A stretch of 64,000 bases of DNA from Hamadaea sp. (GTDB lineage Bacteria; Actinomycetota; Actinomycetes; Mycobacteriales; Micromonosporaceae), in NCBI RefSeq assembly GCF_013362815.1, contig NZ_JABFVK010000069.1:1-64000 (forward strand). The letters are read 5' to 3'. The notes under the pieces are model-generated. The model was not told where the DNA came from, searched no databases, and saw only the letters and a list, made by a program, of their open reading frames with translations. The position numbers and the translations under genes are program-made. Positions 7,589-10,443 of this stretch are shown in pieces (position 1 is the first letter of the stretch; every line of letters begins with the position of its first letter).

Positions 7589-8800
7589 TTACAGGAGTGC
7601 AACCGAGCGAGCGGCGACGACGGACCGAATGAGGTCCAGCGCCTCCCCCACCGGCTGAGGATCGAGCGACCGCCCGTCCCGCAGACGCAGCGCGACCGCA
7701 CCCGCTGCCGCCTCCCGTGCCCCGATGACGGCGGCATACGGGATCTTCCGTTGGGCGGCTTCGCGTACGCGCAACGACAATGAGCCTTCCTCCAGCACCT
7801 CCACTCGGAGTCCGGCGATCGAAGCCTGCGAGTGCAGAGCCCAGGCGGCGTCGCGCTGGTCCGCTCCGATCGGTACGACGGCCAGCTGCACCGGGGCGTA
7901 CCAGGCGGGAAAAGCGCCCTGATGCACCTCGATGAGGTGGGCGAACAGCCGCTCCAGGCTGCCGATGATGCTGCGGTGCACCATGACCGGCCGCTGCTTC
8001 ACGCCTTCGCTGTCCACATAGGCCAGATCGAATCGCTCGGGCTGCGCGAAGTCCACCTGAATGGTCGCCAGCGACAACTCCCGGCCCTGCACGTCGCGGA
8101 TCTGCAGGTCGATCTTCGGGCCGTAGAACGCCGCTTCCCCCGGTGCCTCGAAGAACGAGACGCCCTCCGCGATCAGCGCGTCGCGCAGCATCCCCTCCGC
8201 CTCGTCCCACACCGAGGGCTCGCCGAGGAACTTCTCACCCCGCAGGGACAGCCGATAGGAGTCCACGGCGAAGCCCAGTGCGGCGTGCGCCCGCTTGATC
8301 AAGGCGAGCATCGCGGCGACCTCCGCGCCCACCTGATCCACGCGGCAGAACACGTGCGCGTCGTTGAGCGAGATCGCGCGTACCCGGGACAGACCCGACA
8401 GGACGCCGGACCGTTCGGCTCGGTACTGCCCGCCCAACTCCGCGATGCGCAGCGGCAGCTCCCGATAGGACCGGCCGCGCGCGCCGAACACCATCGCATG
8501 GTGCGGGCACATGCTCGGCCTCAAGACGAGCGCCTCCTCCTCGGGCGAAGAGGCCATCGGCGGGAACATGTCGTCGGCGAACTTCGCGACATGCCCCGAG
8601 CGCACGTACATCTCGTGCTTGGCCATCGGCGGCGAGTAGACGTGCTGGTATCCGGCGAGGCGTTCCTCCTCGCGGATGTACTCCTCGACCGCGTGACGCG
8701 CGGCCGCGCCGGCCGGCAGCCAGATCGGCAGGCCCGCGCCCACCAGCGGGTCCGAGTGAAACAGCTCCAGCTCACGGCCCAGCTTGCGGTGATCGTTCAT
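7589..8800 (-). CDS. Short threonyl-tRNA synthetase lacking TGS and editing domains
   Basis: Class II synthetase charging tRNA-Thr. At 403 residues it has only the catalytic core and the anticodon-binding domain; usual bacterial ThrRS is about 640-690 with N-terminal TGS and editing domains. The three zinc ligands that select Thr are present: Cys98 in MCPHH, His in DAHVFC, His in VMVHRSIIGS. Motif 2 (YRAERSGVLSGLSRVR) and motif 3 (GSLERLFAHLIE) are intact, so it should be active but unable to clear Ser-tRNA-Thr in cis. The Shine-Dalgarno GGGAGGAAG is well placed. A Thr-rich leader peptide and terminator precede it. It may be a second ThrRS used under Thr starvation or inhibitor stress. Confidence 0.9.
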   Translation of the reverse strand: MNDHRKLGRELELFHSDPLVGAGLPIWLPAGAAARHAVEEYIREEERLAGYQHVYSPPMAKHEMYVRSGHVAKFADDMFPPMASSPEEEALVLRPSMCPHHAMVFGARGRSYRELPLRIAELGGQYRAERSGVLSGLSRVRAISLNDAHVFCRVDQVGAEVAAMLALIKRAHAALGFAVDSYRLSLRGEKFLGEPSVWDEAEGMLRDALIAEGVSFFEAPGEAAFYGPKIDLQIRDVQGRELSLATIQVDFAQPERFDLAYVDSEGVKQRPVMVHRSIIGSLERLFAHLIEVHQGAFPAWYAPVQLAVVPIGADQRDAAWALHSQASIAGLRVEVLEEGSLSLRVREAAQRKIPYAAVIGAREAAAGAVALRLRDGRSLDPQPVGEALDLIRSVVAARSVALL

Positions 8801-8848
8801 CGCTCTTCCTCCCTAGGGGTATGCCCAAGGCCGGTCCGAAGAGCGCGA

Positions 8849-8877
8849 AACGGCTCCGGGACTAGCCCGGAGCCGTT
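8849..8877 (-). terminator. Attenuator terminator hairpin ahead of the ThrRS gene
   Basis: 12-bp perfect stem AACGGCTCCGGG / CCCGGAGCCGTT with a 5-nt loop, followed on the minus strand by a short T run (GTTTCG). It lies between the leader peptide stop and the ThrRS ribosome site. Confidence 0.75.
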
Positions 8878-8879
8878 CG

Positions 8880-8929
8880 GTTGACTGAAATGTCAGCAGG
8901 TCAACAGAAGGTCGCCGGGAAACCCGGCG
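8880..8929 (-). promoter_or_regulatory. Alternative hairpins of the threonine attenuator
   Basis: Hairpin 1 (8913-8929) is CGCCGGG-AAA-CCCGGCG and overlaps the leader right after its Thr codons. Hairpin 2 has arms GTTGAC (8880-8885) and GTCAAC (8900-8905). A ribosome stalled on the Thr codons would block hairpin 1, freeing its CCCGG strand to pair with the CCGGG of the terminator's first arm. This mechanism is inferred from the sequence. Confidence 0.6.
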
Positions 8930-8957
8930 TCGTCGTGCTCTGCTGCTGCTGATGCAT
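8901..8957 (-). CDS. Threonine-codon leader peptide (18 aa)
   Basis: Reads MHQQQQSTTTPGFPATFC and stops with TGA at 8903-8901. Three consecutive Thr ACG codons (8936-8928) and one further Thr ACC are the expected sensor of charged tRNA-Thr. It starts 14 nt after the stop of the TAXI lipoprotein gene, so it can regulate read-through from that operon or a promoter within its 3' end. No strong Shine-Dalgarno is seen (GAGG about 14 nt upstream). Confidence 0.75.
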   Translation of the reverse strand: MHQQQQSTTTPGFPATFC

Positions 8958-8971
8958 GGATCAACCGTACC

Positions 8972-9952
8972 TCACACGCCGTAGTAACCGCGAGCACCCG
9001 GATGCAACAGCACCGGATCGGTTTTCGCGGCGACCCCGCGATCGATGTTCTTCCCCTCGGGATGCACCGCGGCGAGCTCGTCCTGGTGCTCGAAGAGCAG
9101 CCTAGTCAGCTCGTACGCCACCTCGACCGGCATCGACGGGGATACCACCAACAGCGCAGGGACCGCCACGGTCGGCACGTCCGCCGCCAACCCGTACGCA
9201 CTCTGCGGGATGCTCGCCGCGGTGTAGACCCCCGGGTACGCCTTCTCCAGCGCGGGGAGCACGGCGTCGGCCCGCAGGAAGGCGACCTGGCCGGGCAGCT
9301 TGGCGAACAGGGCGGTGATGCCGACCACCGGCAGACCGGCGGTGTAGAAGAACGCGTCGAGCTGCCGGGCGGCGAAGGCGCTGGTCATCTGACTGAGCGA
9401 GGCGGTGACCCGCCGCACGTCCTTGTCGGGGTCGAGACCCGCCGCCGTCAGCACCCGCAAAGCCATGATCTCGGTGCCCGAACCAGCCGGGCCGGTCGCC
9501 ACCCGCTTGCCCTCGAGATCGGCGAGCGACCGGATCCCGGCGTCCGAACGCACCACGACATGCGTGTACGCCGTGAACAGCCGGGCCAGCGCGCGTACCT
9601 CCACCGGCGAACCGGCGAAGGAGCCCTTGCCCGCCACGGCGTCCCCGGCGACGTCGGCGAACGTGAAGCCCACGTCGATGTCGCCGCGGACCAGCCGTTG
9701 CAGGTTCTCCGAGGCGCCGTTGGTCGGCATGGCGACCGCCTCGAACCCGGTCAGGTGCCGGTTCACGACGTCGGCGTACCCGCTACCGAGCTGGTTGAAG
9801 ACGCCGTTGGTCGGGCCGGTGCCCACGGTGAGCCGGCCGTGCTTCCAGAGCTGGAGCCGGGCGTCCAGTTGCGGCTGCGCACAGCCGGTCGCCGCGACCA
9901 GCGTCCCGACCAGGAGCGAGAGGAAGGCGGCGGCCGCCCGGCGTGCCCTCAC
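8972..9952 (-). CDS. TAXI-family solute-binding lipoprotein (TRAP-type receptor)
   Basis: Binds a small anion outside the membrane; TAXI proteins normally feed TRAP transporters. 326 residues from a GTG that overlaps the stop of the roadblock gene (GTGA), implying translational coupling. The signal has a weak lipobox ending ATGC (Cys24). GTGPTNGVFNQLGSGYADVVN, FTFADVAGDAV and GPAGSGTEIMALRVL are typical TAXI motifs. No TRAP permease is nearby; instead it is the third gene of a sensor operon, so a role as ligand sensor is more likely than transport. Confidence 0.8.
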   Translation of the reverse strand: MRARRAAAAFLSLLVGTLVAATGCAQPQLDARLQLWKHGRLTVGTGPTNGVFNQLGSGYADVVNRHLTGFEAVAMPTNGASENLQRLVRGDIDVGFTFADVAGDAVAGKGSFAGSPVEVRALARLFTAYTHVVVRSDAGIRSLADLEGKRVATGPAGSGTEIMALRVLTAAGLDPDKDVRRVTASLSQMTSAFAARQLDAFFYTAGLPVVGITALFAKLPGQVAFLRADAVLPALEKAYPGVYTAASIPQSAYGLAADVPTVAVPALLVVSPSMPVEVAYELTRLLFEHQDELAAVHPEGKNIDRGVAAKTDPVLLHPGARGYYGV

Positions 9953-10368
9953 AACTGGCCCGGCACCCGGGCGCCCGGCTCGAGCGCCACCGCGACTCGC
10001 TGCGCCAGCAGGGCGGTCTCGTAACCGGTCTGGCCGAGGTCGCAGCCGGGTGCGGCGAGCACGGCGAGGTGCGCCCGGTCCCCGACCGCCATGATCAGCA
10101 GTACGCCGCCGTCCATGTCCACGACCGTCTGGCGTACGCGGCCGGTGGTGAGCACGGTGGACGCGCCCATCGTGAGGCTGACCAGGCCGCTGGTGATGGC
10201 GGCGAGGCGGTCGGCCTCGTCGAGCGGCAGGCCCTCGGTGGCGGCGAGGGCGAGGCCGTCGACCGAGACCGCGAGGGCGTAAACGATGTCGGGCACGCGC
10301 CGCGCGAAGGCGGTCAGCAGCCAGTCGAGGCTGGCCGGGTCGGTGCCGGTGGTCATATCGAGGGACAT
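9949..10368 (-). CDS. Roadblock/LC7 domain protein
   Basis: Small regulatory protein of the conservon B (CvnB) type, a partner of histidine kinases and small GTPases. 139 residues with the LC7 signature YALAVSVDGLALAATEGLP and DRLAAITSGLVSLTMGAS. It follows the kinase gene by 64 nt and overlaps the TAXI gene by 4 nt. The usual DUF742 and GTPase members of a conservon are absent. Confidence 0.88.
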   Translation of the reverse strand: MSLDMTTGTDPASLDWLLTAFARRVPDIVYALAVSVDGLALAATEGLPLDEADRLAAITSGLVSLTMGASTVLTTGRVRQTVVDMDGGVLLIMAVGDRAHLAVLAAPGCDLGQTGYETALLAQRVAVALEPGARVPGQL

Positions 10369-10404
10369 GCTGTTCTCTTTCTTGACGGGTGTGCTCCAAC
10401 CGGC

Positions 10405-10443
10405 GGCTCACACCACCGGCTCACACCGGCGCTCACACCGGTG
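10405..10443. repeat. Short tandem repeats at the end of the kinase gene
   Basis: Three close copies of GCTCACACC(G/A)(G/C)C span the kinase stop and the gap to the roadblock gene. Slippage product or minor hairpin; no clear function. Confidence 0.4.

Follow-up and report, generated by a model that had tools for sequence, protein, structure and literature searches.

The window examined here, a 64,000-nucleotide stretch of Hamadaea sp. DNA, carries a gene for a short threonyl-tRNA synthetase (ThrRS) preceded by a small reading frame with a run of threonine codons and by several hairpins, which raises the question of what this leader senses and how it would act on the gene. We consider it likely that the region acts as a ribosome-mediated attenuator, with charged tRNA-Thr as its signal and a threonyl-tRNA synthetase gene as its target. 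The anatomy of the region, its conservation, its association with thrS and the pairings available to its RNA, assessed with shuffle and swap controls, were obtained in the analysis.

The short ThrRS matches the NCBIfam thrS profile from position 171 of 565 onward, and its Pfam domains are tRNA-synt_2b and HGTP_anticodon only, that is, the class II catalytic core and the anticodon-binding domain; by both measures the TGS and editing domains are absent. The zinc-ligand positions C98, H149 and H275 are retained (the third was read by eye), and the idea of a zinc-independent paralogue was rejected on this ground. These features agree with the first-pass annotation, which had described a 403-residue ThrRS without TGS or editing domains but with its zinc ligands, and had suggested a check for a second, full-length thrS. 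Such a gene is present in the same genome, and its product is 41% identical to the short ThrRS over the common part. Among 264 relatives, the nearest named one is a Hamadaea MAG, at 95% over the ThrRS. The short enzyme may serve as a backup that the leader turns on, as had been suggested.

On the minus strand, from 8969 to 7589, the region contains in order a −10-like element, the leader ORF, hairpin P1, a 13-bp hairpin, an element that we call D, the Shine-Dalgarno (SD) region and the ThrRS gene (Table 1). The leader codons are ATG CAT CAG CAG CAG CAG AGC ACG ACG ACG CCG GGT TTC CCG GCG ACC TTC TGT TGA, and P1 overlaps the third Thr codon, which confirms the earlier claim of a Thr-codon leader ahead of an editing-less ThrRS. 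The fold of 8975-8798 is more stable than 200 of 200 dinucleotide shuffles (z −5.25), and the helix of the long hairpin shows covariation in relatives. The annotation had identified the leader correctly and missed D, between the long hairpin and the SD. Its second hairpin is seen as a pairing of GTTGAC (8905-8900) with GTCAAC (8885-8880), but this forms the interior of the predicted antiterminator. The view that no T-box is involved was upheld at the scores used: the window has no Rfam match at the gathering score, a scan of 8700-9100 returned one weak, unrelated match only, and six loci gave no match to Rfam, T-box models included, at E up to 1.

Table 1. Coordinates of the leader, its RNA elements and the short ThrRS gene in the window
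Feature	Position	Strand	Remark
−10-like element TACGGT	8964..8969	−	6 nt ahead of leader ATG
Leader ORF MHQQQQSTTTPGFPATFC, 18 aa	8901..8957	−	ORF reading
Thr codon run ACG ACG ACG	8928..8936	−	kept in 108 of 110 loci
Hairpin P1, CGCCGGG-TTT-CCCGGCG (segments 1 and 2)	8913..8929	−	starts within third Thr codon
CCCGG (segment 2)	8915..8919	−	candidate antiterminator with CCGGG 8866-8870 of long hairpin; simulated stall folds
Long hairpin, 13 bp (segments 3 and 4), loop 8861-8865	8848..8878	−	putative terminator or lock; folding
L, tip of long hairpin, GGGCUAGUCC	8859..8868	−	10-bp pairing with D in window fold; family covariation
D element	8828..8845	−	between long hairpin and SD
D part CGCUCUUC	8838-8845	−	predicted partner of S
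D part GGACCGGCCU	8828-8837	−	possible partner of L
SD GGGAGGA	8807-8813	−	folding/sequence
S, SD flank, GAAGAGCG	8801-8808	−	folding/sequence
Short ThrRS, 403 aa	7589..8800	−	no TGS or editing domain

Two neighbouring features of the window leader are worth recording. An open frame on the same strand (8972-10411), whose second half we take to resemble a TAXI-type TRAP transporter receptor, ends about 15 nt ahead of the leader ATG, and the −10-like element falls between the two. Four Gln codons (CAG, 8942-8953) precede the Thr run; this Gln run is probably not a sensor, because QQ occurs at that position in 10 of 107 leaders and four Gln are found in the window leader alone.

Conservation was assessed in 110 short-ThrRS loci, comprising the window, the best 80 of the 264 relatives and 29 further loci; the source genome sets overlap, so that these are not all distinct organisms. 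The first-pass annotation had proposed conservation of the Thr run and the hairpin order as a check, and both are kept in 108 of the 110 loci, above chance, so that nearly every locus has a short leader ORF whose codon run matches the amino acid of the enzyme encoded downstream. The two loci without the run, L021 (one Thr left in the leader) and L080 (leader lost), are left out of counts on 108; counts on 107 leave out L029, which has no −10-like element, counts on 106 leave out loci whose D region is too short, and L112, with a divergent hairpin, is retained. In the 108 loci the run lies in frame 5-10 codons past the start, and a TANNNT motif ends 5-8 nt ahead of the assigned start in 107, this 5-8 nt rule having itself served to assign the start; the leader transcript is probably leaderless. 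The Streptomyces-type leader reads M(K/Q)RA..TTTPE.VPAR, and the leaders of the window's family (f1) are more varied. Besides L021, the Thr codons are eroded in L204 (TST), L218 (TRT) and Streptomyces lividans (two Thr).

The association of the leader with the short ThrRS extends to wider genome samples. A leader covariance model (R1), run on 296 genomes of the class with a 45-bit cut, gave 50 matches of at least 45 bits. A leader lies 34-379 nt upstream of 50 of the 51 short-ThrRS genes in these genomes, on the same contig and strand, a count that includes two weaker co-located R1 matches; the sole exception, G133, is at a contig end. Two R1 matches of at least 45 bits lack a short ThrRS, one in G213 at a contig end and one in G220 ahead of a full-length thrS. 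In f1 the leader is found in 135 of 135 short-ThrRS genomes (133 by model, G468 and G484 by eye), and in a second family, f16, in 77 of 77 (76 by model, G559 by eye), co-occurrence being counted in both families per genome rather than through coordinates. Beyond the class, three members of the phylum (G701, G998 and G811), out of 8 genomes with a leader match among 396, have both leader and short ThrRS. Outlier checks of leader matches found a frameshifted short ThrRS in G296, a divergent one in G316, a leader with only a ThrRS remnant at L181 (G436), and an intact leader at L174 (G213) followed by 27 codons before the contig end that are not ThrRS-like. In f16, the outliers G538, G653, G526 and G577 have short-ThrRS sequence downstream and G596 is at a contig end. 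G420 and G432, candidates for leaders on other genes, look like chance matches.

Since P1, the antiterminator and the long hairpin together constrain much of the sequence, the conserved ORF could in principle be a by-product of RNA structure rather than of translation, a reading that we regard as extremely improbable. P1 does not include Thr codons 1 and 2, and in leaders that keep the run these two change only to synonymous codons: codon 1 is ACC in 9 of 108 leaders, and codon 2 in the set of full-length loci described below is ACG in 18, ACC in 5, ACA in 1 and ACT in 1 (n = 25), though this evidence is partly circular because loci were chosen by their Thr run. The distance from start codon to run also changes by whole codons. 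As a separate observation, among 108 leaders codon 1 is ACG in 99 and codon 2 in 106, and in six genes of the window ACC is about twice as frequent as ACG (124 vs 66). This preference may reflect stalling via one isoacceptor tRNA, shared descent being the simpler reading.

From this anatomy we infer a cycle of ribosome stalling and RNA switching, with induction by Thr-tRNA shortage and an apportionment between termination and translation that is considered below. The transcript would be leaderless, beginning at the leader ATG. With ample Thr-tRNA, the ribosome would reach the stop codon, P1 would re-form or its 3′ arm would be covered, and the long hairpin would form; transcription would then end there, or L would be locked in the hairpin so that D pairs with S and translation is off. 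If the ribosome instead stalled on the Thr codons, it would cover the 5′ arm of P1 and so allow CCCGG to pair with the long hairpin at its 5′ arm. With the long hairpin blocked, L would be free to capture D while S is still unmade, which would leave the thrS SD open. In 93 of 131 loci the end of segment 2 lies no more than 12 nt from the stop codon, close enough to be covered by a ribosome that completes the leader.

Folding with shuffle control predicts mutually exclusive antiterminator and terminator hairpins. With a stall simulated at Thr codon 1, 2 or 3, the antiterminator appears in the MFE structure of 130, 130 and 131 of 132 loci, and it measures 10.3 bp compared with 7.8 bp when the linker is shuffled (p = 2e-20), in keeping with the earlier proposal that an exposed CCCGG can pair with the terminator arm. 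In the free leader, with no stall, the antiterminator is present in 80 of 132 folds and P1 in just 72. The antiterminator is nearly invariant, so covariation is uninformative; for that reason, and because it forms in those 80 free leaders as well, the predicted pairing is plausible rather than proven.

The terminator proposed in the first-pass annotation stands in part. The 13-bp long hairpin is present, but it is followed in the window by TTTCGCGC, with no U-tract, and a terminator consensus scan flags P1 as terminator-like and not the long hairpin. Among relatives, at least 5 T within 8 nt follow the long hairpin in only 14 of 133 loci, and the terminator reading fails in this respect at most of them. 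The long hairpin thus lacks the U-tract of an intrinsic terminator in the window and at most loci, and we do not claim membership of the transcription-terminating subtype of attenuators. Because U-tracts are mostly absent, translation may be the level at which some or all of the control is exerted.

A plain transcription attenuator, in which the long hairpin is a terminator and D and S form an ordinary SD-region hairpin with no role in switching, would have the classical anatomy of the actinobacterial trp, trpS and leuS attenuators, whose description in the accessible part of Seliverstov 2005 (PMC1262725) comprises a leader peptide, regulatory codons and competing hairpins, likewise ahead of synthetase genes among others. 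The antiterminator is foldable and the 14 loci with T-rich tails would fit. In the trp, trpS and leuS cases, however, poly-U tracts follow the terminators (PMC1262725, as far as accessible), unlike most thrS leaders here, and the authors of the S. lividans study discussed below make the same remark on a missing uridine-rich stretch (PMC8079986, accessible part). Moreover, D lies beyond the hairpin and co-varies with its tip, which a terminator alone would not need. We judge such a mechanism somewhat unlikely.

The D element can pair either with L, the hairpin tip, or with S, the SD flank. Compared with shuffled D sequences, which preserve base content but not dinucleotide content, the native D is among the best 5% for L:D in 64 of 106 loci and for D:S in 53 of 106. 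In the 76 distinct Streptomyces-type rows of alignment A1 (out of 79), 94.2% of L:D cells are paired, with 25 double-change cells against 7.5 in shuffles; the paired cells, the double-change cells and the covariation score are equalled by 0 of 500 shuffles, while the number of double-change pairs is reached by 43 of 500 and the number of pair types by 48 of 500 and are thus not exceptional. With one locus taken per L type, the own D ranks within the best 10% of foreign Ds for L:D in 47% of 48 types (p = 2e-10), and in the same swap test for D:S in 38% (p = 4e-7). The set of full-length loci played no part in the discovery of D, and there L:D ranks above 95% of shuffles in 15 of 25 cases. The window's own L:D comprises 10 bp and its D:S amounts to about −21 kcal/mol, though 10% of shuffles match that L:D. 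Tree-based independent pairs at four L:D loop positions number about 8.1 one way against 1.9 the other, which leans the supporting way but is too few, no position being significant. D:S covariation in A1 gave no excess over shuffles (10 vs 7.7 cells), D:S in the full-length set, with the first start codon used, was barely better than with shuffled D (3 of 25 loci), and the longest common words of L and S barely differ within and across loci (4.17 vs 3.85).

When folding is simulated with the 5′ arm of the hairpin kept apart and the RNA ending before S, 102 of 106 loci show L:D, compared with 58.3 for shuffled D; with the hairpin intact, L:D forms in 23 of 106 and D:S in 98 of 106. The two pairings are therefore predicted largely to exclude each other, and a second switch built on D is plausible and, as far as we have searched, new. 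Quite possibly, then, though we put it forward tentatively, the leader is a two-layer attenuator in which L acts as a decoy at the hairpin tip and opening the hairpin also frees the SD via L:D, ahead of an editing-less or a full-length ThrRS. If so, one RNA couples termination control with translation control, or replaces the one with the other.

The same pairings bear on a translation-only attenuator, with no termination at the hairpin, which would merely lock L so that D sequesters the SD. Weak U-tracts and the predicted exclusion of L:D and D:S would suit it, as would the greater sequestration of the SD than with a shuffled D region (0.283 vs 0.346, p = 3.5e-6; lower in 73 of 106 loci) and the state of L080, in which hairpin, D and SD are retained, as judged by eye, without the leader. 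We nevertheless regard it as rather unlikely. The effect at equilibrium is small, since SD accessibility goes up only from 0.28 to 0.32 when L is freed, with a rise of more than 0.1 in 22 of 108 loci and a fall in 9 of 108; D:S is weak in the full-length set and shows no excess covariation; and some terminators function without a U-tract.

The first-pass annotation had tied the leader to the editing-less ThrRS, and this restriction does not hold. In f16, which is probably the Streptosporangiaceae of GTDB because it contains a genome whose leader and hairpin region equals that of Nocardiopsis ganjiahuensis, 36 genomes have leader matches of 35-52 bits and 0 of the 36 has a short-ThrRS match. 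Among the 31 of these that were inspected, the leader precedes a full-length ThrRS in 27; the other four are two apparent chance matches (L200 and L201 look like such), a shortened, decayed leader ahead of a decaying short ThrRS (L203, G593), and G522, in which an intact-looking leader (L205) is followed by no ThrRS in the remaining 1.2 kb of contig. The three-Thr run is present in 25 of the 27 loci, and counts on 25 leave out the two without it. In view of the 27 loci, the leader seems to follow Thr-tRNA supply rather than the editing-less enzyme. Separately, 9 of the 25 loci (L175, L190, L192, L194, L196, L199, L212, L214 and L217) have an additional ATG, preceded by an SD of its own, that lies 69-87 nt upstream of the later GTG start of full-length thrS in the same frame, so that in these nine the switch might select one of two forms of ThrRS.

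A leader that senses uncharged tRNA would also react to inhibitors of the main enzyme, and the short ThrRS could accordingly be an inhibitor-resistant backup of the borrelidin type. As precedent, Vecchione and Sello reportedly described in 2010 an auxiliary, antibiotic-resistant tryptophanyl-tRNA synthetase of Streptomyces under ribosome-mediated transcriptional attenuation; it too is an extra synthetase gene whose leader matches the enzyme's amino acid, but it differs in amino acid, in leader and in encoding an antibiotic-resistant enzyme. The position equivalent to human L567 and E. coli L489 is Q in both enzymes of the window genome (DFAQP and DFNQP) and therefore does not distinguish the short ThrRS; on this ground a borrelidin-resistant backup was rejected. 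A simple regular expression read this position in the 110 short enzymes as Q in 70, K in 8 and L in 3, with no reading in 29. The same leader is used, moreover, by genomes that have the full-length gene only, and we consider inhibitor resistance improbable as the role of the short enzyme.

Whether such a leader had already been described, which the first-pass annotation could not tell, is answered in part by thrL of S. lividans TK24 (2021; SLIV_19412, before thrS SLIV_19410), although in one species only. Section 14 of that report (PMC8079986) gives the leader peptide as MKRVRPFLETTPGFVPAR, with a leaderless start by RNA-seq, and one hairpin without a uridine-rich stretch. It thus resembles the leaders described here in being a leaderless Thr leader before a thrS with a hairpin lacking a U-tract; it differs in covering one species with two Thr and, in that section, in giving no antiterminator, D, relatives or enzyme type (PMC8079986). 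The comparison uses the published peptide alone, by eye, and SLIV_19410 would be a short ThrRS, because the leader ends in VPAR. In the same report Table 4 lists a S. lividans 'methionine' leader, metL (MSTTSDRTPATEATTTPGARCMCRRMCAF), in which TTTPG occurs, a core shared by many of the Thr leaders here, and the metL assignment may merit re-examination.

Other known systems share single features. In Anabaena, an accurate constitutive ThrRS (T1) stands beside a second, editing-impaired ThrRS (T2) made on demand, as do the two enzymes here, but T2 is controlled by zinc through Zur rather than by a leader peptide (PMC4787780). The LEU element before leuA and the translational T-box before ileS in Actinobacteria are, like the proposed switch, leaders of amino-acid genes whose RNA acts on the SD; in the LEU element, however, Leu codons pair with the SD, and T-boxes bind tRNA, whereas the thrS leader has no Rfam match (PMC1262725, accessible part). 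The authors of that work report, in its accessible text, no conserved structure ahead of threonine operons (PMC1262725). None of the six terms looked for turned up in the S. coelicolor landscape paper (PMC4895711), and 'thrS', 'threon' and 'leader peptide' are absent from the main text of the S. clavuligerus Term-seq paper (PMC8269248). In the open-licence literature searched, no conserved family, use on full-length thrS or D element was found, although Lopatovskaya 2010 might predict part of this. The kind of attenuator, and thrL in the single species S. lividans, are thus already known, while the spread across families and beyond the class, the use on full-length thrS and element D look new as far as searched.

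With these results, what had been an entry for a single species becomes a regulatory family conserved in many soil actinobacteria, with an anatomy open to testing; they also offer a possible explanation for a leader hairpin without a U-tract, in a leader for which no Rfam model was found. The leader probably turns thrS on when charged threonine tRNA runs short, as judged from its sequence and predicted folds. The occurrence of the same leader type on full-length ThrRS in relatives without the short enzyme makes a direct comparison possible. In organisms with the short enzyme, a ThrRS without an editing domain would be placed under the control of Thr-tRNA supply, and starvation could therefore alter decoding accuracy at Thr codons.
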